A DNA stretch of 64,000 nt from Clostridiales bacterium. GTDB lineage: Bacteria; Bacillota; Desulfotomaculia; Desulfotomaculales; VENG01. The stretch is from contig JAIPEW010000014.1 of NCBI GenBank assembly GCA_021736985.1, positions 1 through 64,000 on the forward strand. Reading direction: 5' to 3'. The position numbers and the translations under genes were made by a program. The notes below the pieces were generated by a model. It had not been told where the DNA came from. It did no database searches and worked only from the letters and a program-made list of their open reading frames with translations. This document shows, in pieces, positions 729-18,908 of the stretch (positions within the stretch are counted from its first letter, which is position 1; the number at the start of each line of letters is the position of its first letter).

Positions 729-1832
729 CTACCCTACAGATACTTCCGTGGTCACTTTTTTCTTGATCGTTACGGGCACGCCGTCCACGAGGAAAGTGAC
801 GGAATTCTGTTCTTCTTTTTTTAGCTTTAACAACACGTCGTCAACCCCTTTGCCCAGGTGTTTCGGCCAGGAACAGTTCTGGGGGTTGTAGCCGTTTTCC
901 CTTAGATGCCCCAGAAACTTCTCCAGTGCATTTTTTACGTTGGGGTTATCACGGGCATCGGAGTCAAATGCAATTACAGGGTCGCTTGCCTGCAGATTTT
1001 TAAGCAGTTCTTCTGCCTTTTTCCACGAGTTCACCCCCGGCACACCTATAAACGGAGTGTTCATCAATACCGAAGCGGCATCGGCTTTTAACGGGCCTTC
1101 CGTAATCCAGACTCTGCCGCTCCCCCCGGAGTAGTGGGCCGGGGCTTTCGGGGATGTGCCGTTAAGTTTTCCATTAGATGAAAACCACTTGTATTTTTCA
1201 TCGCCTTCGTCCAGGCGCATCTGCAGTGCCTGTATCCTCCCGTGTTCGTCTTTTACCGGTATCAAATACCCCCTGGGGGCAATAAAGTCCCAGTTTCTGC
1301 TGCGGGTAAAAAACCCGGGGACTCCTTCAAGGCCGTATTTTGCGTCAAGGTATTTTGCTATTTTGCGGCGTATTTTTGAGTTGCCCGCACCGGGGATAGA
1401 CTTAAACATGCGGTCGTGTATTTGCTTTTCTGTAAACCCCCTGGACAGGAGGTCGTCTTTGTGCCTTCTGGCCAGTTTAAGTATACCGAGAAATGTTCTA
1501 TACACTTTGTCCAGTTTTTCTATCCCGGCTGCCGGGTTTTCAGGCTTTACTTCTTTTATCTCCAGCGGCCCTATTTCATCTTTTAAAGTCATGTACGCCT
1601 CTTTACTGTTTATCTCGTAGTACATAGACCACAATGTAACGGCGTTTCCTTCAGTACCGCAGCGTTGGCATTTAAAGATATTATTTACAGTGTTTATATA
1701 CAGGTGCCCTTTGTTTCTATGTTTTATGGAATCACCGCAAAAAGGACACCTGTATACCTCTTCAGCGCCGGGCCCGGGTTTGATGTATATGAGCCCGAGT
1801 CTCTGGGCTACTCCGATAATATCGAAGTCCAT
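729..1832 (-). CDS. DnaG-type primase-like protein (zinc ribbon + TOPRIM)
   Basis: The product likely makes RNA primers for plasmid or transfer replication. The N terminus carries a CHC2-like zinc ribbon with paired cysteines C29/C32 and C55/C58 (CPFCG ... CQRCG). The C-terminal third has TOPRIM hallmarks: an acidic start at WITEGPLKAD (Glu 245) and the DxD pair in IAFDSDARDN (Asp 290/292), which would bind Mg2+. A short KGVDD segment near 330 also fits the phage/plasmid TOPRIM primase class. At 367 residues it is much shorter than chromosomal DnaG and lacks a helicase domain. The start is ATG with AGGGGGGA just upstream. It follows a RecB-family nuclease gene with a 10-bp gap, as part of a DNA-processing run. 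Confidence 0.8.
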   Translation of the reverse strand: MDFDIIGVAQRLGLIYIKPGPGAEEVYRCPFCGDSIKHRNKGHLYINTVNNIFKCQRCGTEGNAVTLWSMYYEINSKEAYMTLKDEIGPLEIKEVKPENPAAGIEKLDKVYRTFLGILKLARRHKDDLLSRGFTEKQIHDRMFKSIPGAGNSKIRRKIAKYLDAKYGLEGVPGFFTRSRNWDFIAPRGYLIPVKDEHGRIQALQMRLDEGDEKYKWFSSNGKLNGTSPKAPAHYSGGSGRVWITEGPLKADAASVLMNTPFIGVPGVNSWKKAEELLKNLQASDPVIAFDSDARDNPNVKNALEKFLGHLRENGYNPQNCSWPKHLGKGVDDVLLKLKKEEQNSVTFLVDGVPVTIKKKVTTEVSVG

Positions 1833-1842
1833 AACATCCCCC

Positions 1843-2910
1843 CTAGTCCCGGTTGACGAGTTTTAACTGGGGTTTCTTTTCTTTTAACTGCGCGCCGAGG
1901 CCCGAAATTACCTGCCTGCTCCAGCCTAGCTTTTTAAGCTGAGATGACGTCAGGTTAAAATACTTAAAAGGTTCTCTGCCTTCATGTAACAACTTTTTGA
2001 GTGCTTCTTTTTTCGCCTGTATATCCCACGTCCAGTAGCTGTCGGACCTGGAGGTATACATTTTTTTCTCCAGCTTTACCGGGCCGCAGGCTTCCACGTA
2101 TTCCTGCAGTTTGTTTTTCATCCCGTTTAAAGCGCCTTCCATTCGCATTGCCTCAGCGGCCAGCTCTTTTGCTTTCTCGTAAGTATCCACGTCTTCCGGA
2201 TTGGGAAGGGGATATTCTATGCAGTTTGCAGCGCAGCCGCAGTACCGGCACGCTTCCCCGGGAGTTGCGGGGAAAATTTGAGGGAATTCAGACGGCGCTT
2301 TTTCAAGTTCACTGAGCCGGTGCCGGATCGTTTTAGCAGTATCCAGGGCCCACCTGCGGGCATTTTCCAATTCTTTTTCGGTATATTTGTGCTCAATTGA
2401 CCTCCCGTGGCGAAGGAATACCAGCTTTCCCCTGACAGGTTCTTTTTTTAGACACCAGGCGTAGAGGGCCAGCTGGTGGTTTTCCAGGGGGTCGTATTCC
2501 TGCCAGTTAGTTTTCCAGTCAATTACCCTGGTTTCACCTTCTGACTCCCTGCAGAGGTCGATATAGCCCTGCAGGAAAATGTTCTCGCTTTCATCCAGAG
2601 GTCTTATAACATGTTCTTCAACCCTGTTTTCTGGAGAAAACTCCCGGAGGACAGCGTCCTGGCAGGAGAGCTTAAAAACTTCTTCTACGTCTATGTTTTC
2701 CAGTGAATCTGCGACTGCTTTACTTGTCACCCGGAAGAATTCTTCATCCCTTCTGTCGAGCCGCATTGCCGCTTCTATAACGTTGTGTACCGCCTTTCCC
2801 AGCAAAAGCGGGTATGACGGGCCTTCTTCTATTCCTGCCACGTAGGCAGCATAAAATGCTGCCGGGCAGGAAACAAATTTGGACAACCTGCTGAAGCTAA
2901 ATGTGTTCAT
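1843..2910 (-). CDS. RecB/Cas4-family PD-(D/E)XK nuclease with Fe-S staple
   Basis: This is a predicted DNA exonuclease of the PD-(D/E)XK superfamily. Visible motifs are a GKAVH histidine (H42), an acidic residue in GYIDLC (D118), the core VIDWKT (D131, K133), and a QLALYAW motif at 146-152, in the order typical of RecB/AddB/Cas4 nucleases. Four cysteines (C15 and C221-x2-C224-x5-C230) match the 4Fe-4S 'iron staple' of AddB and Cas4. No helicase motifs are present, so it is a stand-alone nuclease. Start ATG follows AAGGAGGG. Beside Bet recombinase, SSB and primase it could supply the resecting exonuclease, as lambda Exo does for Beta. No CRISPR genes are nearby, so a Cas4 role is unlikely. 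Confidence 0.85.
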   Translation of the reverse strand: MNTFSFSRLSKFVSCPAAFYAAYVAGIEEGPSYPLLLGKAVHNVIEAAMRLDRRDEEFFRVTSKAVADSLENIDVEEVFKLSCQDAVLREFSPENRVEEHVIRPLDESENIFLQGYIDLCRESEGETRVIDWKTNWQEYDPLENHQLALYAWCLKKEPVRGKLVFLRHGRSIEHKYTEKELENARRWALDTAKTIRHRLSELEKAPSEFPQIFPATPGEACRYCGCAANCIEYPLPNPEDVDTYEKAKELAAEAMRMEGALNGMKNKLQEYVEACGPVKLEKKMYTSRSDSYWTWDIQAKKEALKKLLHEGREPFKYFNLTSSQLKKLGWSRQVISGLGAQLKEKKPQLKLVNRD

Positions 2911-2922
2911 TTTCAGCCCTCC

Positions 2923-4749
2923 TTACAGGGTGGAGATTACTTTTTTAAATACCCTGGCCGCCTGCAGAGGCAGAGTATCTATTTTATCCACGTACACGCA
3001 GTTGTTGTAAATCATCTGGGCGTTAGGGAGAAACATCGGCGTACCGAAAAACAGCCCGATGACCCCTATACCTTTTTTCTCCGCTTCCCGGACAGCCTTT
3101 GCCGTATCATTAATCCCCCTATCCTTCTGGTATTTTTTATACGGCATCATGGGGAGCCCATCCGAAAGGACAATAAGTATTTTTTTGTCTTCCGCCCTTT
3201 TTTCCAGTTCTTTTGCAGCTACCCGGATAGAGTACCCGTCGCGGTTCTCGTTAGAAGCCCTTAAACCGGCGAGTTTTTCTTTTTCATCTTCGTCAAAATT
3301 TAATGCTTCAAAGTGGGTAACATCTCTCGGCATCCCGTCACTTCCTTCCGGCCTGACAACAGCCCCGGTAAAACCGGTAACTTTTACCGGAATTTTTAAC
3401 GCATGGCAGGTCTCCGTCAAAAGGCAGGCTGCTTGACGGGCACTGAACATTGATTTCCCTTTCATGCTCCCGGAACAGTCTACCAGCAGATAAACTGCCA
3501 GAGTTGGGATATCACCGGGTTCATCTATTCTGCAGAAGACTTTGGGGTTTTTTGCGCCAATTTTCCACAAGGAGCCGGTGTCGAGGCGACCTTTCCTCAA
3601 GTTCCTTTCTACAAAGGACTTTTTGTACTCAAGTATTTTGCGGATCTCGTTTGTGGTTCTTTTGATATAGGGCCGCGTCTTGTCGTACAGGGAATTGTAC
3701 TCTGCTTTGCTGCCGAAACAATTTTCCCTGCGCAAAAAGACACCCCTGTGAATCCCGGTAGAGATCTCCTCTTCTAACTCTCCCCCCGAGGTTTCTTCCG
3801 AAGACAGTTCTTCTTTTTCTTCCCTAAAAGACCTCGCTTCCAGATCTTTTAGCTCGTTTTCCGCCTCCCGTATAAGTTCCGGGTCGGGGACACTTTTATC
3901 TTTATCTGGACTGTCAGGGGATTCAATTGATTCCTTATCTTCACTATTTTCAGCGGGTTCTCCGGAAACTTCTTTTGAAGCACTTTCGCCTGCCTGTTCT
4001 TCTTCAATGGAAGGTTTTTCAGTTTCCTCTGCAATCGCCCCGGATTCTTTTTCTTCAGAAGTTATTGCGGCCCTGCGTGGGTCTACCTTTTGGGCAGGTG
4101 CTTTTGCAGGCTCATAAGTACCGCGGACTTCCGGGCTTTTTGAAGGAGGAGACATTTTAAGGTAGCTTTCCAGTTCTTTATACACTTGTTCAGCACAGTC
4201 CAGTGCGCCGAACGTGTCTTCTGCTATACGCCCCCGGTCAACAATGGGGATGCAGTTTTCTATTAGCTCGAGTACATCTTTTTGGGCAGCTATTTGATCC
4301 GGAACTCTCCCGCCGACCGCATAGGCTGTCAGGCCGCCGAGCAAAGCGTTAGTGCCAGTACCCCAGTCCTGTCTATTAGCAATAATATAGTCAGCCGAGA
4401 ACTTGAACCAGCCTGCTGTACCAGGGTAAGTATTGGACATTGCCAGCTCAATCCTGCTGTCCTCAATTATATTTAACAGCAAGGACAGCAGTTTGTCGCC
4501 TGTTTTCTCCATTACACCGCGGGAGGTAAACAATACATGCCCGCTTTCGTGTGCGCAAGAAGCTTTTAGCATTACCCAGCATTCCGCTTTACTGGCGGGG
4601 ACACCAGGCTCAATTTCGCCGTCGAACGGTGAAAGGGTAATAGTGCGCAGGTCCGTATAAGACCCTTTCCCGAACTTGAGGGTTAACTTGCGTCCCGAGA
4701 GGATGCGGGCCAGGGTCTGCAGCCTGACCCGCTTTAATTCTCTAATCAA
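2923..4749 (-). CDS. CobT-like VWA-domain protein, partner of the adjacent MoxR/CobS-type ATPase
   Basis: The C-terminal region is a von Willebrand A domain with a MIDAS motif DCSGS at 424-428 and a later VLSDG. The N-terminal region has a zinc-peptidase-like HESGH (67-71) followed by IIEDSRIE (94-101), an arrangement seen in CobT-like VWA proteins. The middle (about 190-340) is Glu/Ser/Pro-rich and low complexity, as in CobT. Family members work with AAA+ partners to remodel a target or insert a metal. The gene starts with TTG directly after the stop of the upstream ATPase, so the two are translationally coupled. No cobalamin or chelatase genes are present, so a plasmid or phage-type remodelling role is more likely than cobaltochelatase. 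Confidence 0.8.
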   Translation of the reverse strand: MIRELKRVRLQTLARILSGRKLTLKFGKGSYTDLRTITLSPFDGEIEPGVPASKAECWVMLKASCAHESGHVLFTSRGVMEKTGDKLLSLLLNIIEDSRIELAMSNTYPGTAGWFKFSADYIIANRQDWGTGTNALLGGLTAYAVGGRVPDQIAAQKDVLELIENCIPIVDRGRIAEDTFGALDCAEQVYKELESYLKMSPPSKSPEVRGTYEPAKAPAQKVDPRRAAITSEEKESGAIAEETEKPSIEEEQAGESASKEVSGEPAENSEDKESIESPDSPDKDKSVPDPELIREAENELKDLEARSFREEKEELSSEETSGGELEEEISTGIHRGVFLRRENCFGSKAEYNSLYDKTRPYIKRTTNEIRKILEYKKSFVERNLRKGRLDTGSLWKIGAKNPKVFCRIDEPGDIPTLAVYLLVDCSGSMKGKSMFSARQAACLLTETCHALKIPVKVTGFTGAVVRPEGSDGMPRDVTHFEALNFDEDEKEKLAGLRASNENRDGYSIRVAAKELEKRAEDKKILIVLSDGLPMMPYKKYQKDRGINDTAKAVREAEKKGIGVIGLFFGTPMFLPNAQMIYNNCVYVDKIDTLPLQAARVFKKVISTL

Positions 4750-6165
4750 TTAACTTCCCCCTAACTGGGACTCTATTGTGTCTGAGACCTGGGATATTTC
4801 GAATGTATCGTCCAGGCCGTCAGTTAAAACAGAAGCTGCTATGCTTTTCAGCGTACCGCACCCGTCCAGTTCTTCCCGGGCAACGCGGAACAAAGCTCGT
4901 ACGGACAGTACTTTTTCAGACAAATCGCCGTTATCTACACCTTTAGCTAAAGACTCAAACAGCATGGCGAGTTTTTCAGAAGCAGATTCCCTGGTGCCTG
5001 TCTCTTTACGAATAAGTTCTGCTAACTTGCTGTAACTTAAATGAGGTACGGAAACAGAGCGGAAGCGGTCCTGGAAAGCTTCGTTTAATACTTTTGTACC
5101 CGAGTACCCCATATTCATGCACCCGACAAGCCTGAAAGTAGAAGGCGCATAAATAGTTCCGTAGCCGGGTACCTGAAGCGTTTTCTGCCAGTCCAGGAGG
5201 CCGTGGAGTAAAGAGGTAACTTCCGGAACGAGCATGTTTATCTCGTCAATGATTACCAACTCACCGTTTTCCACGGCCCTTGTAAGCGGGCCGGGCTCGA
5301 AACCTACTTTCATCTGGGAACCTCTTATTTTCTGGATAATCGACTCTGCGTTTACACCGGCGTGCCTGCAGGCACTGCGGAGCTTTGCTTCCGTTATAAT
5401 GTCCATATCGTCTGTCGGGACGAGCGTGCGGGCTCCTAACAGCGCTTCACTGTTCAAGTCAATACCCCCGAAAATTTTAGTCACCGGCAAAAGGAAAACT
5501 GCAGCCAGGGTTTCTGCCATGGTTGACTTGCCCGAACCCTTGGGGCCTATTAACAGAGGTGCTTCCCAGTACCCGCCGTCTTTTCCGTAGACTAACGAGG
5601 ATACGGCGCAGATTAGCTCACTTCCGCTGGGGACGTAGCCGGGCTGCGGGATTCTCCTTTTTTGTTCATCAGTGAGGTTTTCCAACTGGCTCTCCCTAAA
5701 GCTCAGCACTTTTTTAAACACTTTTTCCGGCAGACGATAGCGTTTGAGCCATTCCAGTTCTTCGGGAAGTTCTACCACCGGTTCCGGGCTGGATTCCACT
5801 TCGCCTACCTCCAGCAGCTCAAAATCCCCGGGGCGGTCGAGTATTTCATCGGTAACATCTTTTTGTATTTTTACCGGATTAACCTGGGTATTTTCTATAT
5901 CTATAGACACAGGGACATCCACGCCCGCAGCATAGGCCAGAGCCCCCAGGTGCCAGCAGGGTTTTCCGTCCTGCGTCGCCCTGCAGGTGTGGTATACGAC
6001 GAGAGAATCCTCTTTTATTAGAGCAGCAAGCTGGCGCTTTTTGGACGACGATGATATTCTGTATTCCATGTATAAAGTGCCGTCTGCTGCAACTCCAAAA
6101 CCCCGGATAAGGTCTTTATACCCGGGGGAAAAAGCACTCTCCACGTTTTTGGGCCATATTTTCAA
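4750..6165 (-). CDS. MoxR/CobS-like AAA+ ATPase with an N-terminal Cys/His module
   Basis: This is an AAA+ ATPase of the MoxR/CobS/GvpN type. Walker A is GPKGSGKS (about residue 207) and Walker B is VIIDEIN (about 304-310), followed by a region matching sensor 1 (GCMNMGYSG) and an arginine-containing QDRFRSV segment. The N-terminal 90 residues hold a C-x8-C-x-H cluster (HTCRATQDGKPCWH) reminiscent of a SWIM zinc finger, usually a nucleic-acid or protein contact. A TTG at 6165 is placed correctly behind GGGAGGGG; the TTG at 6171 is too close. It forms a two-gene unit with the VWA protein next to it. The substrate is unknown. Confidence 0.8.
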   Translation of the reverse strand: MKIWPKNVESAFSPGYKDLIRGFGVAADGTLYMEYRISSSSKKRQLAALIKEDSLVVYHTCRATQDGKPCWHLGALAYAAGVDVPVSIDIENTQVNPVKIQKDVTDEILDRPGDFELLEVGEVESSPEPVVELPEELEWLKRYRLPEKVFKKVLSFRESQLENLTDEQKRRIPQPGYVPSGSELICAVSSLVYGKDGGYWEAPLLIGPKGSGKSTMAETLAAVFLLPVTKIFGGIDLNSEALLGARTLVPTDDMDIITEAKLRSACRHAGVNAESIIQKIRGSQMKVGFEPGPLTRAVENGELVIIDEINMLVPEVTSLLHGLLDWQKTLQVPGYGTIYAPSTFRLVGCMNMGYSGTKVLNEAFQDRFRSVSVPHLSYSKLAELIRKETGTRESASEKLAMLFESLAKGVDNGDLSEKVLSVRALFRVAREELDGCGTLKSIAASVLTDGLDDTFEISQVSDTIESQLGGS

Positions 6166-6188
6166 ATGCAACCCCTCCCAAAATTAAT

Positions 6189-6217
6189 AAAAGGAGCAGC
6201 TAAATGCCGCTCCTTCT
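6189..6217 (-). terminator. Intrinsic terminator after the bet gene
   Basis: AAGGAGC (6191-6197) pairs with GCTCCTT (6209-6215). Read on the minus strand the stem is followed by TTTTATTAATTT. It sits just after the Bet stop codon and may limit read-through into the ATPase/VWA genes. Confidence 0.65.
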
Positions 6218-6218
6218 T

Positions 6219-7373
6219 TTAGGCTGAAATAGATTCCATTTCTATAGCTACGCCTTTGCTGGTTTCCTCGGCAGGGCCGGTGACAATTACTTCGTCGCCT
6301 TCTTTTACCTTGGAAAGCTGCTCTTTTAATAAATCCCTGGTTCCGCCGCTGGCGCTGATATAGTATTTAGTACCGTCCTTGTCTACAGCAAGGGCGTAAG
6401 TTACATCACTTTTTTTGCCGTCTTTGGGGCCGTCTCTATAATAAAGCCTGCGCTGAGTTTCTTCCGCCGCAGAGTCTTTTACCTCGCACTTTTCGACATA
6501 AACTCTGTTCTGGTTGTCCTCTTTAACCAGTTTACCGCAAACCTGGACTATATCCTGGGCCTGGTAACTCTTATCTATACCGATCAGGAAATATGTTTCG
6601 TCTTCATCAGTAGAAAAGGCCGGCACTACATAATCATCCAGCTTATCCAGGTAGTCCGGGGAATCTAAAAGCAGCAGTTCGCCGCTAAAATCCTGTCCAT
6701 TAGCTGCTTTTGGTTCAGGAGTCCGGGTATGGTTTTGCTGCTTTTCTTCAGTTTTTTGTTCCTGTTCATCTACTCTTTCAGTATTATCTTTTGATTCAAA
6801 AGAGTTGTTTTTGGGGGTTTTTTCAGGAGCATTTTTGTCAAGTTCTTCTTCGATATATACATTACCGCCCAATTCCAGGGCAAAGGCCATTCTATAACCT
6901 GCAGCTTCTGCACATTTTTTCAGCAGCGTTTCCGGCATGCTTGCCCACATGCCGACGGGTTTGCCTTCTTTTGTCTTGCAGTACTCACGGAACGGTAAGG
7001 ACTCAACAGCAGGCTCCTGCCAGTCATTGCGGTATATTTTAGCAGTAGCACGAACCAGCTGCCCTTTTTCATTGTAGACAGGTTCTTTGATTACCCCGCC
7101 CAATTTGCCCGAACGTTCTGCAACTGCACGGAAACCGTCTATACCAATAATAATTACGTTGGTCTTTTCCCACCTGCCCGTGTCATAGTTTTTCTGGTTG
7201 CGTGTAAGCAGGTGTATTTGCCCGTCAAGAGGGTCCAGTCCCAGCTTGGAAGCTCTATACAAAAACCTCTGGAACTCCGTTTCTGATACAGCCTCTGAAC
7301 CGACTGTTTCCCTTATCAGCTTCACATGTTCGTCGCTGAACCCGTGAAGGCTATTATTTTTCTTTTCAGCCAA
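6219..7373 (-). CDS. bet: Phage-type recombination protein Bet (RecT/Red-beta family) with C-terminal extension
   Basis: The product likely anneals complementary single strands in homologous recombination. The N-terminal 185 residues match the Bet family pattern: a region with GLDPLDGQIHLL, then IGIDGFRAVAERSGK, a short RATAKIYR strand, and the final WASMPETLLKKCAEAAGYR helix. After a Gln/Glu/Lys-rich linker (about 195-235) comes a non-standard C-terminal part of two beta-rich stretches (about 245-310 and 325-384). These look like nucleic-acid-binding OB-type segments, unlike lambda Beta, which ends shortly after its core. Start is TTG behind AAGGAGGAGG. SSB is transcribed just upstream and a RecB-type nuclease lies further down, a recombination set typical of phages and large plasmids. 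Confidence 0.9.
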   Translation of the reverse strand: MAEKKNNSLHGFSDEHVKLIRETVGSEAVSETEFQRFLYRASKLGLDPLDGQIHLLTRNQKNYDTGRWEKTNVIIIGIDGFRAVAERSGKLGGVIKEPVYNEKGQLVRATAKIYRNDWQEPAVESLPFREYCKTKEGKPVGMWASMPETLLKKCAEAAGYRMAFALELGGNVYIEEELDKNAPEKTPKNNSFESKDNTERVDEQEQKTEEKQQNHTRTPEPKAANGQDFSGELLLLDSPDYLDKLDDYVVPAFSTDEDETYFLIGIDKSYQAQDIVQVCGKLVKEDNQNRVYVEKCEVKDSAAEETQRRLYYRDGPKDGKKSDVTYALAVDKDGTKYYISASGGTRDLLKEQLSKVKEGDEVIVTGPAEETSKGVAIEMESISA

Positions 7374-7398
7374 AGGAATTCCTCCTCCTTAAAATTTT

Positions 7399-7821
7399 TT
7401 AGAACGGGACATCGTCTTCATCGAAGCTTATTTCACTGCCGAAACTGTCGGGAGGAGCATCTTCGTCTCTCGGCAGCGGTGGATCTTCAACTTTCTGCCC
7501 GTTTTTATCGTTTAAAGTAAACCTTGCGTCCCATATTTGAACTTCTGCGGCTTTGCGGCGAATGCCGTTTGAGTCGTCGTAAGACCTGATGTGCAGCTCG
7601 CCGACTATTTCAATAGGTTTTCCCTTCTTGAAATAGTTGGAGATGAATTCCGCCGTTTTGTTCCAGGCCACTACGTTAATAAAATCAGTGACCGAGTTCC
7701 CGTCTTTGTCTTTAAACCGCCGGTTTACAGCCATAGTAGCTTTGGCTATTTTAGACCCGTTTTCCAGGTTTTTAAAATCCGGGTCGGCTACCAGGCGGCC
7801 TGCAAGAATAGAGTAATTCAC
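7399..7821 (-). CDS. ssb: Single-stranded DNA-binding protein
   Basis: A standard bacterial SSB. The OB fold occupies about residues 1-105 (MNYSILAGRL at the start, then FINVVAWNKTAEF and GKPIEIVGELHIRSY), followed by an acidic disordered tail ending in DDVPF, the tip that recruits partner proteins. The length of 140 residues is normal. It starts with GTG behind AAAGGGGG and is followed after 25 bp by bet. SSB genes are common on conjugative plasmids, where they coat incoming or displaced strands. The fold, length and C-terminal tip make this assignment secure. Confidence 0.97.
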   Translation of the reverse strand: MNYSILAGRLVADPDFKNLENGSKIAKATMAVNRRFKDKDGNSVTDFINVVAWNKTAEFISNYFKKGKPIEIVGELHIRSYDDSNGIRRKAAEVQIWDARFTLNDKNGQKVEDPPLPRDEDAPPDSFGSEISFDEDDVPF

Positions 7822-7875: not shown

Positions 7876-8148
7876 TCAGTCCATATTTACCGCTTCACTA
7901 CCGTTGCCGGCTATTTTTATAACTCCGGGAACCATTTCGATAACCATCTTTGTGTTTTTAGGCATCTCAAAAGATGTGGTTTCAATACTGGAACCTTCGG
8001 ACGCCTTCACCTCCACCTGTACGTATCCAGGCCAGGGTGTTGGTATAGCCCGGATGATATCCTTACACTTCTCTGCAGCTTTTTTTATCTTCTGGGCCGT
8101 AGAGTGTTCCCGACCTACACCTGTATAAACCGCAAAGCTTGTAGTCAT
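7876..8148 (-). CDS. Hypothetical small protein (90 aa) between SSB and a DNA-binding-like gene
   Basis: Start ATG has a strong GGAAGGAGG signal. The sequence is alpha/beta mixed: a basic helix (QKIKKAAEKCKDIIRAI) then beta-rich segments (GYVQVEVKASEG, KMVIEMVPGVIKIAG). There is no signal peptide, membrane segment or catalytic motif that I recognise. Its leader contains two mutually exclusive hairpins directly before the ribosome binding site, so its translation may be regulated. By position it belongs to the SSB/Bet run. Function unknown. Confidence 0.65.
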   Translation of the reverse strand: MTTSFAVYTGVGREHSTAQKIKKAAEKCKDIIRAIPTPWPGYVQVEVKASEGSSIETTSFEMPKNTKMVIEMVPGVIKIAGNGSEAVNMD

Positions 8149-8223: not shown

Positions 8224-9171
8224 TTATTCAGCTTTTTTTAAATCGTCTCTGATACTCGCTAAAAGCATCTGCAGCTGCTTTTTTGCCACTTCTGCTCTCT
8301 CTGCCTTCTTTTTGTAGTTCTCCACTTTATTTTTATATGAAGCGATAGTATTTACAGCCGCCGACCACTCTATTGAAGCCCTTAGATCAAAGAATATTTT
8401 TTCCGCTTTGCTCGCAGAGTAGCCCGTTGCTTCTTTTATGTCTCTAACCATCTGGTCAATGTCTTTTCGTTTCCAACCAATAGAATTTTCGATGAATTTC
8501 TGCCTGGCAAGCTTTTTCTTAAGCTTCTTATTCTCCTCTATTGTACTGTCGATCTTCTCCTTATAGAGAAAAAGCTCGCCCTGCTCATCAATTACCTTCT
8601 TTAATTCCCGGGATGTCCACGCATATTTTTGTGCAATATTGAGCCACTCTTCAGGGGTTTCCGTTTCTGCCGCGTTCATGTGGTGCCTGAAAGAAAGGTC
8701 AAAAAACCGTGAGTCAGGGGGAAACATTTTGAACGTATAAGCATACCTTCTAGCTTCACAGTTTTTTAAACCCAATGATGAAGCAACACTTTTTAACCTT
8801 GCCCCTGTATCCAAAAGAGATGCTATCATCTCTCCTTTTTTCCAGGGAGAACTGCATTTCTTTTTAACAATACTGCCCCATTTTTTTAAGACAGTACCGC
8901 AACCTGTACCCGTTTTTTGGGATACACTTTCAATATCCTGCTGAATAAGAGTTCCTTTTTCCGAGAAAAGGTCTAAAAGTGCCTGATCCGGACTCTTTGG
9001 GTGCGGATCTCTAATGCTGGAATAATAATAACTCCTTAGTCCGCCGGGAGCGAGGTTGTATTTTTCTGCAAACTTCTGCAGCCCCTTTTTAGCACCTTGT
9101 AAACTAATATCGTCACTTAGCTCTTTGATTTTCCCGGGAGTAAAAAACTTCTTAGAGAAATTCTTCTGCAT
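8224..9171 (-). CDS. Hypothetical basic protein with HTH-like segments (315 aa)
   Basis: Start ATG is behind TCAGGAGG. The protein is basic and helical. Several stretches look like repeated helix-turn-helix or Myb/SANT-like units with aromatic anchors (GLQKFAEKYNLAPGGLRSYY, then GMIASLLDTGARLKSVASSLG-type segment, and EWLNIAQKYAWTSRELKK). The C-terminal 110 residues are a probable coiled coil (KIDSTIEENKKLKKKLARQK and later KVENYKKKAERAEVAKKQL). This design fits a DNA-binding regulator or partition accessory protein, but I cannot name a family. It has its own 5' region, separated from the next upstream gene by a terminator. Confidence 0.6.
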   Translation of the reverse strand: MQKNFSKKFFTPGKIKELSDDISLQGAKKGLQKFAEKYNLAPGGLRSYYYSSIRDPHPKSPDQALLDLFSEKGTLIQQDIESVSQKTGTGCGTVLKKWGSIVKKKCSSPWKKGEMIASLLDTGARLKSVASSLGLKNCEARRYAYTFKMFPPDSRFFDLSFRHHMNAAETETPEEWLNIAQKYAWTSRELKKVIDEQGELFLYKEKIDSTIEENKKLKKKLARQKFIENSIGWKRKDIDQMVRDIKEATGYSASKAEKIFFDLRASIEWSAAVNTIASYKNKVENYKKKAERAEVAKKQLQMLLASIRDDLKKAE

Positions 9172-9421: not shown

Positions 9422-10072
9422 TCAATATTTTCTACAAATTTTTTCTGCACAATAGTATTCAGGAGTCCCGTCTGGTTTAAAAAAAGCTTTATCGATAGAC
9501 TGCATCAAACTGAAATCAGTTGCCACCCGGAAAGGGACTTCGAGTTTTATCTCTTTAAAATTTTCCATGACCACGAGAAGCCTGGGTACATTTTTTAAAA
9601 TGTCAGGTAAAATACTTGTACTGTCTCCCTTCCGCAAAACCAGCACCGGAAAAACTTTTCCTATATTTATTACACCGCTAAACGGCCGGGTACACTTTAT
9701 TGAGGCTTCTACAGATACTACTTCCCGAAATTTTGTATACAGCTGGGCAAAAACAAGTTTTCGCAAAAGGCTGTCTATGTTATTCTGGTTCTGCAGCGTA
9801 TATACGGCCAGGTCTTTTCTGCCTGATAATAAGATTTTTGCCATATAGCCTTTTGCCGATAAACTATTTAGTTTTTTTCTGCTCTTTTTACCCCACAGCC
9901 ACTCCAGTTGATATGGCGCTACTGCACCTACGGAATCAATTACGTTTAACGTGATAAATTCCTGCACTGTAAAGTCAGTAATTTCATTTTTTTTACTGCG
10001 CTGTTCTCTAATTTTATAGTTATTAAGCAGTGAAAAAGGAGATAAATCCATACTCCGGTCAATACTGTCCAC
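9422..10072 (-). CDS. Hypothetical protein with a winged-helix-like N terminus (216 aa)
   Basis: Start is GTG at 10072 with GGAAGGGGG about 10 bp upstream. Residues about 35-110 read like a winged helix (VQEFITLNVIDSVGAVAPYQLEWLWG, then KKLNSLSAKGYMAKILLSGRKDLAVYTL). This resembles the first domain of the replication-relaxation type proteins, and a longer relative may lie at 23.3-24.2 kb in this window. The C-terminal half is beta-rich without clear motifs. I infer DNA binding; the role is unknown. Confidence 0.55.
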   Translation of the reverse strand: MDSIDRSMDLSPFSLLNNYKIREQRSKKNEITDFTVQEFITLNVIDSVGAVAPYQLEWLWGKKSRKKLNSLSAKGYMAKILLSGRKDLAVYTLQNQNNIDSLLRKLVFAQLYTKFREVVSVEASIKCTRPFSGVINIGKVFPVLVLRKGDSTSILPDILKNVPRLLVVMENFKEIKLEVPFRVATDFSLMQSIDKAFFKPDGTPEYYCAEKICRKY

Positions 10073-10359: not shown

Positions 10360-11190
10360 TCATGCGCTTTCTGTTTTTCTGATCAACTTTAATAAACTCC
10401 CGTTAATTTTTTGTTCTTCTGCGATAATATTGGTCACCTGTACAGCCACAATATCACCTTTTTTTACTTCGTATTTCTGCGACCTCATATGCCTGCAAAG
10501 AGCATTTACACCGGGTTCCAGCTCTACAAAAGCTCCATAGCTGGTAGTACCCGTAACCCTGCCCTGGTAGATACTTTTCTTTTTGTACCTCTCCAGTGCT
10601 TCAGGCCAGGGATTGGGAAGCAAGTCTTTTACAGACACCGTCACTTTTTCTTTTTCACTGTCCAGCTCTTTAATTTTTACCTGGAACTCATCACCTGGTT
10701 GTATCATATCACCTATGTCATCTACCCAGCCGTGTGATAATTCCCAAACTGGTAGATTTGCCTCAACCCCGCCAAACTCCACTATTACATTGGTTGGATA
10801 GACGTGTCGGGCTGCGGCATTTACTACCTGACCCTCTTTCAGGTTAGGCCAGGTGCGCGTTTTTAACTGCTCCAGTGCGGCTTTTCGTGAAGCCATAAAC
10901 ACGTCCTGCTCGCGGTCTATACCGATTACTATCATGGCAATATCCTGGCCTAACAGCTTCATCATACGGCGCCGGTTAACTGGCTTTTTAGTATCTACTT
11001 TGATGCCTATTTCTTTTAGCGGAATAATACCTTTAACCCTTTCCCTGGTTACTACCAGGCACGGCATTTTTTTCCCGTCCTGCATTGGCCACTCTTCAAT
11101 ACCTGTTACCGGCCACCAGATTACCGTCCTGTTCTGGCGTGAAGAAAAAATTTCCGGCCATACGTCCTGGAAAAATTCTTTTTGAGTCAT
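10360..11190 (-). CDS. S1-domain RNA-binding protein (two S1 repeats)
   Basis: Two S1/OB RNA-binding domains are visible in the C-terminal part: about 115-185 (EGQVVNAAARHVYPTNVIVEF ... LPVWELSHGW) and about 200-270 (YQGRVTGTTSYGAFVELEPG). The second has the classic GxVT...YGAFVEL pattern of ribosomal protein S1 and polynucleotide phosphorylase. The N-terminal 110 residues are unassigned, though EGWVEG-type residues there (RVKGIIPLKEIGI) suggest a divergent third OB fold. Length (276) is that of short S1-like proteins. Start ATG is behind AAGAGGAGG. It sits alone between two terminators. It may influence plasmid mRNA translation or stability, which is inference. Confidence 0.85.
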   Translation of the reverse strand: MTQKEFFQDVWPEIFSSRQNRTVIWWPVTGIEEWPMQDGKKMPCLVVTRERVKGIIPLKEIGIKVDTKKPVNRRRMMKLLGQDIAMIVIGIDREQDVFMASRKAALEQLKTRTWPNLKEGQVVNAAARHVYPTNVIVEFGGVEANLPVWELSHGWVDDIGDMIQPGDEFQVKIKELDSEKEKVTVSVKDLLPNPWPEALERYKKKSIYQGRVTGTTSYGAFVELEPGVNALCRHMRSQKYEVKKGDIVAVQVTNIIAEEQKINGSLLKLIRKTESA

Positions 11191-11550
11191 TTTAAGTCCT
11201 CCTCTTGAAATTTTTAGTCCTAAAATAAAAAAAGAGCCATATTACTGGCTCCAATTTATCGAATGATTTAGTTTTTCAAGAAGAGTTGTTATGCAAAAGG
11301 TCTGGAAAATCAAAACTACATAATTCCCTGTCCCCGGAGGATATGGCAATAGGTTTTTTATAAAAGTTATTGAAATTTTATCCACGCCTCCTATTTCAAT
11401 ACTAAATCCATGATTTTACTGAATTTTTGTTATGTTCAGCAGGCCCTAATTACTTTTACCTATGTATAAAAAGGTGGCCATATTATGTCCCCCTTTTTAT
11501 CGTCAAGTATCCTAATTACAATTAATATTTACTTGTTTTAATATAATTTT
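11191..11550. other. 360-bp intergenic region containing one terminator
   Basis: Apart from the terminator at 11224-11253 I see no gene. Short open stretches of under 40 codons occur on the minus strand without ribosome binding sites. A poly-pyrimidine/purine motif around 11460-11500 (AAAAAGGTGGCC ... CCCCCTTTTT) may form a weak structure. Confidence 0.4.
11224..11253 (-). terminator. Intrinsic terminator downstream of the STAND gene
   Basis: GAGCCA (11234-11239) pairs with TGGCTC (11246-11251). On the minus strand it is followed by TTTTTTTATTTTA, so it would end transcripts arriving from the STAND/PLD gene. Confidence 0.65.
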
Positions 11551-14500
11551 TTATAAAGCAAATGACATTAATTGCACACGTTCATCATCGCCTACTTGAT
11601 TAGGATAAAAAAACATTTTTGTTATTAAATTATTTTCAATTTCAGATTTATCTTCACAATCCATAAATGTTATTGTACTATCTTTGTTTCCAAAACCATT
11701 AATTGATGTTCCTAATTTTAATCCAGCTTCATTTGTAATTATAAATCTATCATGCATAGTTGTTTTTCCTGAGTTAGTAGCGAAAACATTAATTTGCGTT
11801 TCTGGTGGCAATTGATCACAAACTTTATTCCATGATTTTTTAAACCTATTCTGTATATCTTCAAGTTCAATTATTCTTGCTGAAGTAAAAATTTGAACTC
11901 TTATCTTGTGTGGAATTGATTGCAAGATAGATACTTCATTCTCACAAAAATATGGATCATAAATTATAACATAATCCATTGCATTATCTATAACCCATTG
12001 TTTTATAAAATTTATCGCCTCATCCCCCTGTCCTTTGTAAAATGTCTTTATGTTTGGCAAAACTGACTGTTGATCGATATATTCCTTAGATGCAACTTGT
12101 TGCATAATTACACTATCAATATTATGCAACAAGTTTAACATGTTTACCATTTCCCCAAAAAAATTATGCAAATATGATGTTTTTGATTGATTTGACATTA
12201 CTGTATTTTCAATAAACCAATTTATTGAAAGTTGTACAGTTTCAAATTCTTGATTCAATGAACAATATAACCATTTTCTTATTACATTTTCATGCTGAAT
12301 AGTTGCACGATTAGAGTTCACAGATTGCATAATTTTTTGCAACGCATTATTAACAATTCTATTATATTCAATCGCTTGATAGTACTCAATATTATTTGGA
12401 TTTGATCGTAAATCTAAAGTTTTTATATTATCGTTTAATTGATTTCTATGAGCATAACTATCAACTTTACTTGCAATGTCTGTAGCTAAATTATAATCTA
12501 TTGAATGTGCAATTTCAATTATATGCCCTATTATTTGGTCACGTCCTTCATTATGTGAACATAATTGGGCTGTATTTATAGCATTATTTAATAAAAACTT
12601 TGCCGCTTCATTATCTGACGTCTCTGAATATCCTTTAGCTACTAGTTGAAATCTTTCTGCCCTATCTATATGGTTATAAATTTTATCCAAATGATTTTCT
12701 GCATTTTTTAACATTCTCTTCCCGATTTCTGAATTTTTATTATAAGCGGCTACTCCAGCACATTCAAAAACTAAAACTTTATCTGCAGTATTATCTATAT
12801 GTCCTTTTATCTGATTTTCTATTTCATCCCAAGTAAAACACAATTTATTCCAACTTTTTTTAGCTCTAAATCTCGTGGTACTTTTAGCAACATCTCTCAA
12901 CTGACACATACATACTCTTATGCAAATTTCATATCCGAAGTGTTGAATATTTATAGGATCAGGTAGCTTATTATCAATAATATCATTCAGCTTTTGCACT
13001 ATATTTAACAATTGATCTTCTGTAAGTCTAGTATCTTGTTTATCATTTGCTTTTTTTATTATAATTTTATCCACAAGGACACTAATTGCCTTATATATTG
13101 CAAAATCTTGATTCATATTTTCAATCAATTCACATATTTTTATTGACTCTGAATAATCTAAATTCGTAACAATTCTGTCAATATCTACCCTGTCTGACGG
13201 AGGTCTCTTACTCAATACAAAACTTATTACGTTCATTATTGAAATATCTTGTATATAATGCTGTAATTTTTTTAATTTTTCATAATAATAATTTCTTTCG
13301 TACTGAAATAGTAAAGGTGAAATATTTATTATTAATTGCTCATATTCACCCTCATCAATACTTTTTTCAAAATAATCAATACATATTTTGGCATGATATT
13401 TAAAATAATCCTGCCTACCTGAAGTCAAACAACGCAATGCTAACTCACTTAAAAGTGAACAACGGGTAAAATTTGATGGAATATACGAAATCGCATTTTT
13501 AAAAATATCAATATTTTCCGAATAATAGCTATCCTTCATAATGTCTGGAATACATTTTATCGCAAGATTGCATGTTTTAGCATACAAATAAAATAACCTA
13601 TTATCAGTGAAATAATATTTTGTTTTATTATCAGATATATTAGAGAAAATACTTTTAGCCTTTTCTCTATCAGTATGAGCAATTATCGTAACTACTTTGT
13701 TACCAATCTGTATTTGATCAGTCAGTGAAAGTTTACCTATTGCGTCTTCCAATCTATCATAAATTGAATTCAATACACTGTTATTATCTTCATTAGAAAT
13801 CCAGCACAACAAGTAAGCCAATGCATAACTTTTAGGCACTAATCCTCTCATATCATAAACTTTTTGCACAAACTTTAACTTAAACTCATGACTACAATTA
13901 TAATTTGTTAATTTTTTTAGTATTTGTACCAATGTCCACTCATATTTATTTATATTTTTAATTTTACTTAGCGATTCAAAAATAAATTTGAAATCCAAAA
14001 CTTGAGAATCAAAATTATTTATATATGTACGCAAAATTTTAACTGTAGCATCATCGCGTCTAAATTCAACATTTAATTTTTGCGCAAAAAATATAGCTAT
14101 ATCCTTATCATAATTAATTAATGCAACTAGTATCCCTTTTGTTACTTTGTATTGCTGTGCAGAAGTTTCAAGTAATGTATCAAAACTTCTTCTAAGTTCA
14201 TTTTCAAGATATACTTTCATACTAAGATCTATATCGTTTAATTGAGTCAAGGTTTGTAATATTCTTACAATAACATAACACCGAGAATTATAATCTGATA
14301 ATTCATCTAAATATAAATATATACTGCAAATTCTATCATCAGTGCCAAAAAAATTATATTCAATTATTGCTAATGTTAATTCTAATCTAACATATTCATC
14401 TATTGGATTTTTAATTGCAACATTTTTCAAGTTATCAAATTTTTTTAAAATACTTTCAATTAGCTCGTAATTATTACAATAAATAAGGGGCTTTGAAAAT

Positions 14501-16158
14501 TGACGTAAATGCTGCATAGTTGGAGTGTAATTACTATTTTCAATCATTATATTTAGTGCATAATTTACAACCTTCAAATCATTACCTTGTTTTGCGTTTG
14601 TGTTACACCATGATTGCAACAAAAACAATTTAGCAGATATATTATCAATTTGAGCAGCTTGTTCCAAAATTTTTTCTTCAGATGATTCAGCTATTGTTGA
14701 AGAAGCAACTTCTGCAAAACTATACAATGATTCATTATTAATTTCATCACGCATTCTATCTACAGGGTTATCTTCAGGTCCTAACATATGTGATAACCTC
14801 ATTATTATTAACTCCATTAAGTTGTTTTTTAAATCATCCTGATTATTTTCTTTTGCAATACGCCCAAAAATTTTTTCAGCCAAATCAGCCCTAATAGGAA
14901 ATATATTAGTGCAAACTTCTAATAACTTTTCAACAACCTCTTTAGTTAACTCAATACTACTATCAATAAGATCAATTGATTCTTCTATAATATTTATTAT
15001 ATCTTCACATATATATATACCATTTTCCCACATATAATTACATATATGAGACAAAAGTTTCAAGCGATCTTCTGGTAACATAGTTTTATACGCATAATTC
15101 AAAGCCCTATCATTATAACCTAAAGCAAGCAGAGCTCTAATTTCGTTTTCAACCGCTGGCGGTGAACTGATAATTTTGGAAAATACAGATTCAGCAAGCG
15201 CCCCCCAAGCTAAAATTTTAGTATCATTTTTTTGATATGCCATTTCTGATAACATGCGTATACTACGTCTTACCAATGAAACTTTTTTTGTGCGTCCCAA
15301 AAAATCAACCAATGTATTTACATCAAGAAGACTAACCATTGCTTCAAAATTATCCATAGCCTTATATAATATTGGCAAATTTATAAAAGCGCTATATGAA
15401 TCATTTGATTTATAATAATTAATTAATTTTTCAATTATATATGTTTTTTTATTGTCAAGCTTTTCTTGTAAAAAAACTTTATATTCATCAACCACTTTTA
15501 CATGTTTGTTATGATATATTTTAATAAATTCTATCGATTCAATTATATGTTTAATTTTTTCTATATCAATATTCAATATTTGGCTTAGAGAACCTGTTGT
15601 ATGGAAATCATATGAAAAAACTAAAACAGCTAATAAATTTATTACATTTTCATCCGAACAATTAATTTTATCCCATTCTTTTTCCAATAATTTATGAAAA
15701 TTTGAAGGCAAATTTTCAATAAGTTTTTCCACATTTGCCCCTTTTGACAGCTGCCTATGCAACTCGCAAACATATTTAGGCAACCCATTGCATACATTAT
15801 GTACTGTGTCTATTTGTTCATTAGTCATATATTCATTTAAAAGTTTTTCTGTTTCGTCTTTTGAAAACCACAGCATTAGCCATGTGAAATAATCAAAATT
15901 ATAATTTTTTTCAGTGCTGCTAGTAAGCACATAAATACCATAATCATAGCCTGTAGGCAACAAATCCAAAATAGTCTCTTCACCAAAGCCTTTTGGTATA
16001 CGATCTAATCCATCAATAACAAAATAGTAAGAAATGTTGTTGTTTTTTACTTTTTTTCTTAATTTATTATACAATTTTGAAAATCTTTTTTTTAATTCAT
16101 GCTCATCAAGATTTTCTAATTCTTCTTTATCATTTAAATTATAGTTTAAGCCACTCAC
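11551..16158 (-). CDS. STAND-type NTPase with C-terminal PLD-like effector, 3' fragment cut off by an IS
   Basis: This is the large downstream part of a gene broken by the IS481-like insertion at 16165-17625. It begins at the disruption (GTG at 16158) without a ribosome binding site. The first 100 residues carry a Walker-B-like YYFVIDGLDR and a sensor-like GIYVLTSS, completing the P-loop on the 5' fragment. A winged-helix-like region and roughly 1000 residues of helical repeats follow. The last 170 residues look like a phospholipase-D-superfamily domain: IIYDPYF, then MHDRFIIT and GTSING, an H-x-R variant of HxK. Such designs (sensor repeats plus NTPase plus nuclease/PLD) are typical of anti-phage STAND proteins, though the effector here is C-terminal. 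Very AT-rich, which suggests acquisition. Without the 5' part it is probably not expressed. Confidence 0.75.
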   Translation of the reverse strand: MSGLNYNLNDKEELENLDEHELKKRFSKLYNKLRKKVKNNNISYYFVIDGLDRIPKGFGEETILDLLPTGYDYGIYVLTSSTEKNYNFDYFTWLMLWFSKDETEKLLNEYMTNEQIDTVHNVCNGLPKYVCELHRQLSKGANVEKLIENLPSNFHKLLEKEWDKINCSDENVINLLAVLVFSYDFHTTGSLSQILNIDIEKIKHIIESIEFIKIYHNKHVKVVDEYKVFLQEKLDNKKTYIIEKLINYYKSNDSYSAFINLPILYKAMDNFEAMVSLLDVNTLVDFLGRTKKVSLVRRSIRMLSEMAYQKNDTKILAWGALAESVFSKIISSPPAVENEIRALLALGYNDRALNYAYKTMLPEDRLKLLSHICNYMWENGIYICEDIINIIEESIDLIDSSIELTKEVVEKLLEVCTNIFPIRADLAEKIFGRIAKENNQDDLKNNLMELIIMRLSHMLGPEDNPVDRMRDEINNESLYSFAEVASSTIAESSEEKILEQAAQIDNISAKLFLLQSWCNTNAKQGNDLKVVNYALNIMIENSNYTPTMQHLRQFSKPLIYCNNYELIESILKKFDNLKNVAIKNPIDEYVRLELTLAIIEYNFFGTDDRICSIYLYLDELSDYNSRCYVIVRILQTLTQLNDIDLSMKVYLENELRRSFDTLLETSAQQYKVTKGILVALINYDKDIAIFFAQKLNVEFRRDDATVKILRTYINNFDSQVLDFKFIFESLSKIKNINKYEWTLVQILKKLTNYNCSHEFKLKFVQKVYDMRGLVPKSYALAYLLCWISNEDNNSVLNSIYDRLEDAIGKLSLTDQIQIGNKVVTIIAHTDREKAKSIFSNISDNKTKYYFTDNRLFYLYAKTCNLAIKCIPDIMKDSYYSENIDIFKNAISYIPSNFTRCSLLSELALRCLTSGRQDYFKYHAKICIDYFEKSIDEGEYEQLIINISPLLFQYERNYYYEKLKKLQHYIQDISIMNVISFVLSKRPPSDRVDIDRIVTNLDYSESIKICELIENMNQDFAIYKAISVLVDKIIIKKANDKQDTRLTEDQLLNIVQKLNDIIDNKLPDPINIQHFGYEICIRVCMCQLRDVAKSTTRFRAKKSWNKLCFTWDEIENQIKGHIDNTADKVLVFECAGVAAYNKNSEIGKRMLKNAENHLDKIYNHIDRAERFQLVAKGYSETSDNEAAKFLLNNAINTAQLCSHNEGRDQIIGHIIEIAHSIDYNLATDIASKVDSYAHRNQLNDNIKTLDLRSNPNNIEYYQAIEYNRIVNNALQKIMQSVNSNRATIQHENVIRKWLYCSLNQEFETVQLSINWFIENTVMSNQSKTSYLHNFFGEMVNMLNLLHNIDSVIMQQVASKEYIDQQSVLPNIKTFYKGQGDEAINFIKQWVIDNAMDYVIIYDPYFCENEVSILQSIPHKIRVQIFTSARIIELEDIQNRFKKSWNKVCDQLPPETQINVFATNSGKTTMHDRFIITNEAGLKLGTSINGFGNKDSTITFMDCEDKSEIENNLITKMFFYPNQVGDDERVQLMSFAL

Positions 16159-16164
16159 TTTAAA
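16158..16164. repeat. Target-site duplication, left copy (CTTTAAA)
   Basis: The same 7 bp recur at 17626-17632 on the other side of the IS. Flanking TCA on both sides makes the duplication look up to 10 bp long, but three of those bases belong to the IS end on the right. Confidence 0.8.
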
Positions 16165-17625: not shown

Positions 17626-17923
17626 CTTTAAACATTTGTTCACAAATATCAATTAAAAAACTATAAATATCTGAAGACCAATAATCATCACCAACGAAAA
17701 AAGAAAACGTTCTATCTGAAAAATATCTTGCAAATTGAGATAATAAAACAGTTTTGCCTGAACCCGATATGCCTTTAATTAATATAGTTTGCTGCTCACC
17801 TGAAAACATTGAACTGATCTGTCGTAATAATACTTCACGCCAAATTTCTTTATCGGGTATTTTAGGAAATGTTAAACAATATTTTGTAAGATTAAGTTCT
17901 TCTTGGTTTACTATTTCTTTCAT
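17591..17923 (-). CDS. STAND NTPase, 5' fragment (P-loop), truncated by the IS
   Basis: This is the N-terminal end of the gene continued at 11551-16158. ATG at 17923 follows GGAAGGTGG; a GTG three codons earlier is less well placed. Residues 51-58 are a Walker A loop (GISGSGKT), within a typical ILIKG...VLLSQFARYF context. Native codons run to MFK at the duplication; the next nine codons and the stop come from the IS end. Joining codon TTT-AAA-GTG at 17632-17624 to the same codons at 16164-16156 keeps the frame, giving about 1634 residues. The fragment alone would be a 110-residue P-loop stub. Confidence 0.8.
   Translation of the reverse strand: MKEIVNQEELNLTKYCLTFPKIPDKEIWREVLLRQISSMFSGEQQTILIKGISGSGKTVLLSQFARYFSDRTFSFFVGDDYWSSDIYSFLIDICEQMFKVNYVDKGFTVW
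17626..17632. repeat. Target-site duplication, right copy (CTTTAAA)
   Basis: Identical to 16158-16164; together they bracket the IS and mark the original continuous STAND gene. Confidence 0.8.
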
Positions 17924-17964
17924 TTTTACCACCTTCCAACCAAAACTTGTAAAAGCGTTTTAGT

Positions 17965-17992
17965 AGTTTAATTTAATATATATCAACGTCAA
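17965..17992 (-). promoter_or_regulatory. Candidate sigma-A promoter of the STAND gene
   Basis: On the minus strand TTGACG (17992-17987), a 16-bp spacer and TAAACT (17970-17965) lie about 40 bp before the ATG at 17923. Match to consensus is moderate and the region is AT-rich, so chance similarity is possible. Confidence 0.4.
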
Positions 17993-18902: not shown

Positions 18903-18908
18903 TTAATT

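Follow-up and report, generated by a model that had tools for sequence, protein, structure and literature searches.

The AAA+/VWA pairs of the CGN type (NorQ-NorD, CobS-CobT and CbbQ-CbbO) and Rea1/Midasin act on metalloenzymes, Rubisco or pre-ribosomes; NorQ-NorD and CobS-CobT are metalloenzyme activators. A pair of this kind, referred to here as CobS and CobT, is encoded within a run of six genes in a Clostridiales bacterium (GenBank assembly GCA_021736985.1, contig JAIPEW010000014.1), of which positions 1 to 64,000, hereafter the window, were analysed. In the phage literature such pairs have been given several readings. The CobST genes of cyanophages and haloviruses were read as boosting vitamin B12 production together with the host CobN (PMC8651126), while a role in virion assembly was proposed for the MoxR and VWA-metallopeptidase pair of group 2.2 jumbo phages (PMC7824862). 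The pair of Hardycor1 lies in a replication and accessory region and its functions were called unclear, perhaps chaperone-like (PMC7911831), and that of phage 0305phi8-36 was named a MoxR-type metalloprotein chaperonin in 2007 (PMC2147016). No proposal of a replication or recombination role for the pair was found in the open-access titles, abstracts and passages searched.

The co-directional run of six genes noted in the initial annotation was confirmed: six open reading frames, all on the minus strand, were present between positions 7821 and 729 in the order SSB, RecT, CobS-like, CobT-like, nuclease and primase-like, and their families were matched in Pfam or PHROGs. They are predicted to encode an SSB of 140 amino acids (7399..7821; Pfam SSB 5e-26, PHROG 4.3e-39) with an acidic C-terminal tail ending in DDVPF, a RecT-family single-strand annealing protein of 384 amino acids (6219..7373; Pfam RecT, PF03837, 4.7e-29), a CobS-like AAA+ ATPase of 473 amino acids (4750..6171; AAA_5 1e-21) with an N-terminal SWIM-like zinc motif, a CobT-like VWA protein of 608 amino acids (2923..4749; CobT_C 4.9e-12), a Cas4/AddB-type PD-(D/E)XK nuclease of 355 amino acids (designated NUC, 1843..2910; PDDEXK_1 1.2e-25, Cas4 6.5e-5) and a primase-like protein of 367 amino acids (designated PRIM, 729..1832; PHROG DNA primase 3e-25, DUF3854 7.7e-13). 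The intergenic gaps, in the order of transcription, are 25, 47, 0, 12 and 10 bases, and a purine-rich, ribosome-binding-like stretch precedes each of the six genes. By its predicted products the run is the DNA-processing operon of a conjugative element.

The annealing protein, initially annotated as Bet, was found to belong to the RecT family instead (PF03837, 101.8 bits against a cut-off of 24); its match to the RecT-like phrog_2780 (1.6e-33) was better than that to the Bet-like phrog_252 (1.1e-21), and its identification as lambda Bet proper was rejected. The identification of a RecB/Cas4-type nuclease was borne out: the four Fe-S-type cysteines of NUC (C15, C221, C224 and C230), together with D118, D131 and K133, were invariant in all 11 family rows aligned, and by this PD-(D/E)XK core and these cysteines it is classed as a Cas4/AddB Fe-S-type nuclease. 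Neither YqaJ nor DUF3150 was listed for the ten window proteins to which Pfam was applied. PRIM, likewise recognised from the start as a TOPRIM primase, has a Zn-ribbon (C29/C32/C55/C58) and TOPRIM-like residues (E245, D290 and D292) that were invariant in the seven rows aligned.

The ATPase and VWA protein inserted among these DNA genes were also correctly recognised at the outset. CobS scored 77.8 bits against AAA_5, and its Walker A (GPK-SGKST), Walker B (DE(I/V)N), sensor 1 (N353) and arginine finger (DRF) were conserved in 10 of 10 rows, as was an N-terminal HxC...CWH motif (H61, C63, C72 and H74), which was invariant. The motif only resembles a SWIM zinc finger, the Pfam SWIM score (0.037) being under the cut-off. 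When the CobS profile was compared with the PDB, Midasin, CbbQ and NorQ were matched, and CobS itself more weakly (2.1e-5, against 1.4e-51 for Midasin, a value summed over several AAA repeats). The sequence thus identifies CobS as a MoxR/CGN-type AAA+ ATPase with an additional putative zinc-motif domain.

CobT consists of an N-terminal helical domain, an acidic linker (38 D/E and 13 K/R in 108 residues) and a C-terminal VWA domain with the MIDAS motif DCSGSM (residues 424-429). The N-terminal domain carries HExxH at positions 67-71, followed by N93..E96-D97-x-R99. The HE of the motif was invariant in 11 of 11 family rows and the second histidine was present in 10 (HESGY in locus L032), while the MIDAS residues D424, S426 and S428 were invariant in all 11. 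The VWA family PF11775 was matched at 46.4 bits (cut-off 21); the N-terminal family PF06213 was absent from the matches of the window protein at E<=0.01 and from those of the L023 protein at E<=1, and scored only 0.61 for L028. The best structural alignments of the VWA model were tied between the Rea1 MIDAS domain (Z 22.4, root mean square deviation 2.2 over 203 residues) and NorD (Z 21.9, 3.4 over 240 residues), and the matches listed for the whole CobT model covered only the C-terminal part with the VWA domain. Since it follows CobS with 0 bases between and its MIDAS residues are invariant, CobT is identified from its sequence as the adjacent VWA partner of CobS, with a predicted N-terminal HExxH domain.

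Conservation of the module was assessed in 113 genomes of the same bacterial order, 12 of which, including the genome of origin, were matched by CobS at E<=1e-10. The order SSB, annealing protein, CobS, CobT and NUC was kept, with strand, in nine other loci (L023-L031) from eight genomes, G049 carrying two, and the identity of CobS in these was 50-63%; conservation in nine other loci excludes chance as the reason for the gene order. PRIM followed NUC on the same strand in eight of the nine; in L030 it lay just beyond the stretch first read, in L027 it was split by an insertion and L031 had none on its 14-kb contig. CobT, NUC and PRIM were also present in G014, where a contig edge falls inside CobT. 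Of the remaining CobS-positive genomes, G010 carried a NorQ-like pair that is only distantly related, the pair of G041 was an orphan, and in G040 the contig ended inside CobS. In L033 (2-370), a copy outside the module, CobS is cut by the contig end and lies beside a gene that is radA-like by eye.

The pair was retained where the annealing protein was not. In L029 this slot is occupied by an AAA_24 protein (PF13479 2e-12), which we take to be a Sak4-like type of annealing protein, and in L025 and L026 by proteins that resemble RecT only weakly by BLAST and do not match the Pfam RecT family; CobST was kept in all three. CobT and NUC were both present in ten genomes and both absent from two (Fisher p 0.015), a count that omits G041 (CobT without NUC), G006 (a nuclease relative without CobT) and G029 (the S1-domain gene described next, without either). 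These distributions suggest that the nuclease, more than the annealing protein, is what the pair is tied to.

Upstream of SSB the operon is preceded, on the same strand, by a wider conserved block. A conserved 90-amino-acid protein (7876..8148) has homologues of 31-56% identity upstream of SSB in L023-L027, a 315-amino-acid protein (8224..9171) gave BLAST matches in L023, L025, L026, L027 and L028, and a 216-amino-acid protein (9422..10072) was matched in L024-L031 and not in L023; none of the three had a Pfam match. An S1-domain protein (10360..11190; Pfam S1 1e-15) serves as a marker of the element family and, used as bait, was found in 12 of the 113 genomes at E<=1e-40. The S1, 216-amino-acid and 90-amino-acid proteins recur in most loci. 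In G029 the S1 gene and the 216-amino-acid homologue were the sole genes of the block in the 19.9 kb read.

Protein-only scans of genome and viral contigs found no close CobS relatives. An alignment scan for CobS gave nine loci, all in this bacterial order and none in viral contigs, and the CobT N-terminal domain was found in 2 of 398 genomes of a phylum-wide sample, both again of this order. The close family therefore looks narrow, and wider claims draw on distant homologues, to which the following comparisons apply.

A comparable gene set is annotated in the IncC plasmid pAR060302, where genes for an AAA protein, a hypothetical protein, ssb, bet, exo, a DUF3150 protein and a VWA protein lie on one strand. 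The IncC VWA protein aligned to residues 19-533 of the 608 of the window CobT (24%, E 7e-15), HExxH and N-x-x-E-D-x-R-I-E included, and the IncC AAA protein aligned to CobS (24%, E 3e-7). With the IncC block as megablast query, 106 of 5,426 E. coli genomes were matched, 82 of them over at least 80% of the block. A 'cobS' presumably also lies beside ssb-bet-exo in the SXT/R391 integrative and conjugative elements; the comparison made here covers IncC. A further plasmid, pAQU1, lists both CobS and VWA genes (PMC4036041).

On plasmid pBpOF4-01 of Alkalihalophilus (Bacillaceae; L007 592-11029), a CobS with HHC...CVH and a CobT with HExxH were observed, with an S1-like gene upstream; the window SSB and RecT were unmatched in the 17 kb read. 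These features suggest that pBpOF4-01 is a distant cousin of the element.

Eleven phage records were compared (ICP2, RHEph10, nickie, SSU5, CRP-810, GMA6, P-SSM2, Ochrobactrum phage OC, BS162P1, V1VFA-S and Cantare), each as the BLAST match with 8-9 kb on either side, less at record ends such as the start of CRP-810. Replication genes (primase, helicase, polymerase, ligase, clamp or SSB) were found near the pair in 10 of the 11, the stretch of CRP-810 having endonuclease V and integrase only. No annotated virion gene was present in any of the 11 stretches, in which many genes are unnamed. The ATPase partner matched AAA_5 in 10 of 10 records tested, all of the 11 except nickie. In T4-like P-SSM2 and in phage OC both genes are flanked by gp46/gp47 on one side and clamp genes on the other; in P-SSM2 the clamp genes are gp45/gp44 and the two genes of the pair are 1.2 kb apart. 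SSU5 has its virion genes at 0.8-26 kb, the pair at 42.8-46.4 kb and SSB, exonuclease and recombinase at 52.3-55.7 kb. In ICP2 the pair and the annotated virion genes (3.4-26 kb) are encoded on opposite strands. Of the annotated DNA genes of ICP2, nickie and Cantare, those nearest the pair encode primase, ligase, polymerase or helicase. The CobS of nickie was matched by 514 phage records, and 57 of the 60 rows listed were labelled CobS, cobaltochelatase, cobalamin or porphyrin.

A 'peptidase' annotated near cobS in P-SSM2 (L073 5291-7504) has both HExxH and a MIDAS motif and is likely, by these motifs, to be the CobT partner under another name. Clamp genes were also observed in relatives of the clostridial element: RecT has a DNA polymerase beta clamp nearby in L068 (2082-3242), and a clamp fragment with an AAA_15/SMC-like ATPase lies a few kb past PRIM in L070 (2-3480). 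Their presence is reminiscent of cyanophage CobST, which has clamp and gp46/47 genes as neighbours.

Outside the window family, HExxH was present in 13 of 14 mobile-element CobTs (nickie had lost it) and in none of five housekeeping-type CobTs (Fisher p 0.0005), the two classes having been assigned after the records were seen and the unverified L009 ('Bacteriophage sp.', a pair without HExxH) having been left out; with L009 counted the figures are 13 of 15 and p 0.0014. Each of the five housekeeping-type records carries a plasmid label in the collection; four were classed by their neighbours and Acetoanaerobium, a record without annotation, by its 2.6-Mb length. The Alkalihalophilus plasmid CobT was counted as positive for HExxH, and the patterns used gave no DxSxSM MIDAS and no clear N-x-x-E-D-x-R in it. 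In a tree of 31 CobTs, with long branches and weak deep support, the mobile-element proteins did not form one clade and three changes were required, and for this reason retention of HExxH in mobile elements, with several losses, is a better account of its distribution than one origin. Comparison of the SSU5 CobT with the B12-pathway CobT (PDB 9uka_G) by phmmer gave -1.8 bits, which is insignificant alone, and no HExxH in the residues shown (60-146); the family shared with the N-terminal domain of the B12 CobT is assigned from a match of the SSU5 protein to PF06213 (2.1e-37).

On balance, we favour the reading that the pair is an AAA+/VWA remodeller, possibly proteolytic, of the replication or recombination complex of the element. 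It is supported by the conserved module, by the exchange of the annealing protein while CobST stays, by the co-occurrence of CobT and NUC, by the company of the pair in IncC plasmids and phages and by the conserved motifs. Remodelling of such a complex had been put forward in the initial annotation, and its premise, a conserved neighbourhood, held in the family, in IncC and in the phage records; the activity itself is predicted from sequence. CobS would form a hexameric motor, and the MIDAS face of CobT would dock a protein of the complex, a step modelled on Rea1, whose MIDAS domain holds its substrates. ATP hydrolysis would then strip or remodel the docked protein, which the HExxH domain might cleave or clip. 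Likely substrates would be proteins on DNA ends or single strands: a stalled host factor, or one of the element's own SSB, annealing protein and nuclease. Once they were remodelled, the nuclease, the annealing protein and the primase could each take their turn, for instance during conversion of a transferred strand to duplex DNA or during its recombination. The related pairs of IncC plasmids and several phage lineages may do the same job.

Several observations weigh against this reading. The related elements of G001 and G002 keep S1, a 216-amino-acid homologue, SSB, a weakly RecT-like gene and PRIM, with no CobS (E<=1e-10) and no NUC (E<=1e-15); as the pair is absent from two related elements, it is not strictly required. 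An orphan pair without the module exists in G041 (L032). The association of CobT with NUC is weakened to p 0.09 when G041 and G006 are added to the count, and stands at p 0.03 when G029 is added as well; the G006 nuclease is 30% identical and lies in a different, prophage-like context. In Bacillus, Cytobacillus, Butyrivibrio and Caballeronia records the neighbours of housekeeping-type relatives are of other kinds, so that the pair had related neighbours in the order of origin (9 of the 12 CobS-positive genomes carry the module) and unrelated ones in these records, a mixed answer to the question, raised at the outset, of whether most genomes place the pair among unrelated genes. The 11 phage records were hand-picked, with no random-gene baseline and with many unnamed genes near the pair; the tree places them in about six lineages, not eleven independent cases, and the annotated virion gene closest to cobT in ICP2, a tail-fibre gene on the opposite strand, ends 7.3 kb before it. 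The N-terminal domain of CobT was modelled with a mean pLDDT of 79 and gave no Foldseek hit at E<=0.001, the best VIA Z being 3.7 (helical look-alikes); as it matches no solved fold, peptidase activity is predicted from the motif. The peptidase label of cyanophage CobT was moreover called mistaken in PMC8651126. The HExxH motif speaks for that label, and is no proof of it.

The orphan pair of L032 (2271-5167) lies beside a gene that is ksgA-like by eye; its CobS has no zinc-motif domain and its CobT reads HESGY.

The main alternative is that the pair inserts or repairs a metal centre, either Fe-S or a catalytic metal, of the adjacent nuclease. The tendency of CobT and NUC to occur or to be missing together, the four invariant Fe-S-type cysteines of NUC and the presence of NorQ-NorD and CobS-CobT among the solved relatives are all in keeping with such a role. 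However, the exonuclease next to the homologous IncC pair, which is of the YqaJ type, has four scattered cysteines, that of SSU5 has three, and in neither do they form a cluster of the Cas4 type, so that an Fe-S cluster is not the general reason for the pair; in ICP2, nickie and Cantare, moreover, the annotated DNA genes closest to the pair are those for primase, ligase, polymerase or helicase. We consider a metal-centre role rather unlikely, and just as possible as a second alternative, in which the pair acts as a protease at establishment of the element, its target being a repressor, SOS regulator, nuclease or defence factor of the host that it would degrade or inactivate. Here the prevalence of HExxH in mobile-element CobTs compared with housekeeping-type ones, and the encoding of the pair with establishment-type DNA genes, would be expected, but neither CobS nor CobT (nor RecT) had a PADLOC match, the conserved site of the pair is inside a DNA operon and not among cargo genes, and the N-terminal domain found no counterpart among solved folds.

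Both published readings fit this element poorly, since no CobN was detected in its own genome, it is a conjugative element, and the phage copies read are located away from annotated virion genes. CobN (PF02514) had 0 matches in the genome of origin and was found in four of ten genomes tested (nine with the module and the orphan G041), and no B12 gene besides the pair was recognised in the operon. Together with the far better PDB match of the CobS profile to Midasin than to CobS, this makes it extremely improbable that CobST joins a host CobN in cobalamin synthesis, in spite of its homology to CobS/CobT and of the viral proposal (PMC8651126). A chaperone for the assembly of a virion or of the transfer apparatus could draw on the role published for MoxR and VWA-metallopeptidase pairs (PMC7824862) and on the type IV secretion coupling protein of the element; it is nevertheless quite improbable, as the families listed for the tested window proteins included none of virion type, none of the 11 phage stretches had an annotated virion gene and the pair sits in a DNA operon both in the window and in relatives. 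The absence of the pair from two related elements and the orphan of L032 (L033 being cut by a contig end) could also mean that it is hitch-hiking cargo with an unrelated job, merely located in the operon; the recurrence of DNA-gene company in IncC and several phage lineages, with differing gene orders, makes this very improbable.

The window is part of a contig of 71,292 bases (C52) in a 2.84-Mb genome with a tabulated completeness of 100%. The element is marked as conjugative by a type IV coupling protein (21379-23331; PF02534 8.9e-73), a ParM-like actin (25613-26668; ALP_N 1.7e-28), two ATPases of the T2SSE type (at 39775 and 49151) and an AAA_10 ATPase (60126-62024) that also matched TraG weakly. 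No relaxase or integrase belonging to the element was identified, and no virion families were listed for the window proteins tested (Pfam and PHROG). Genes resembling, by eye, a Tad-type pilus (a T2SSE ATPase and prepilin-peptidase-like genes) lie within the element at 34657-47518. About 10 kb of extra genes (11191-21378) separate the S1 gene from the coupling protein, the two adjoining in L024-L026; they include a 1535-amino-acid protein (PADLOC PDC-S05 2.5e-11), an rve transposase (16230-17348) and a PD-T4-9_C-like protein (20143-20589; 1.8e-6), and likely represent, by these matches, a defence-cargo insertion. In G112 (L060 10499-14989) the coupling-protein gene is interrupted by an open reading frame of 608 amino acids that is reverse transcriptase-like by eye.

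A broader proposal is that one dedicated AAA+/HExxH-VWA machine is common to clostridial conjugative elements, IncC plasmids, T4-like cyanophages and actinophages, and remodels, perhaps cleaves, their own replication or recombination proteins; it is offered tentatively, as a possibility against which we lean slightly. If it were true, the vitamin B12 reading of phage 'cobS' would be a widespread misreading, and the CobT of the B12 pathway would retain this N-terminal domain in a degenerate, derived form. A host with no detected CobN and a pair in an SSB-RecT-nuclease-primase operon allow the B12, virion-assembly and DNA readings to be separated, and if the DNA reading holds, a gene pair common in phages and resistance plasmids would be a new kind of replication or recombination factor.

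Compared with the known systems, the window pair is like NorQ-NorD, CobS-CobT, CbbQ-CbbO and Rea1/Midasin in its AAA+ sequence and in the sequence and fold of its VWA/MIDAS domain, while the zinc-motif domain of CobS and the HExxH of CobT are features of the window pair. The Bacillaceae housekeeping pair, which we take to be of the YojN-YojO type, shares a MoxR AAA gene adjoining a VWA gene and differs in lying beside odhAB or other housekeeping genes and in having no HExxH. The viral CobST, read as vitamin B12 genes in PMC8651126, is homologous to the window pair. The jumbo-phage pair (PMC7824862) likewise has an AAA+ gene beside that of a VWA protein with an N-terminal metallopeptidase-type domain, whereas the window pair belongs to a conjugative element and has DNA-processing neighbours. 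Another close system is the IncC block, in which an AAA ATPase, SSB, an annealing protein (Bet), an exonuclease and a VWA protein with HExxH are co-directional as in the window, with a different order (AAA-hyp-ssb-bet-exo-DUF3150-VWA), an exonuclease of the YqaJ type, a DUF3150 gene and an AAA protein in which the zinc-motif pattern of CobS was not found. The arrangement had initially been thought undescribed. The IncC annotation already holds such a set, and the phage papers discuss the pair with other functions; the arrangement therefore has a precedent in IncC.

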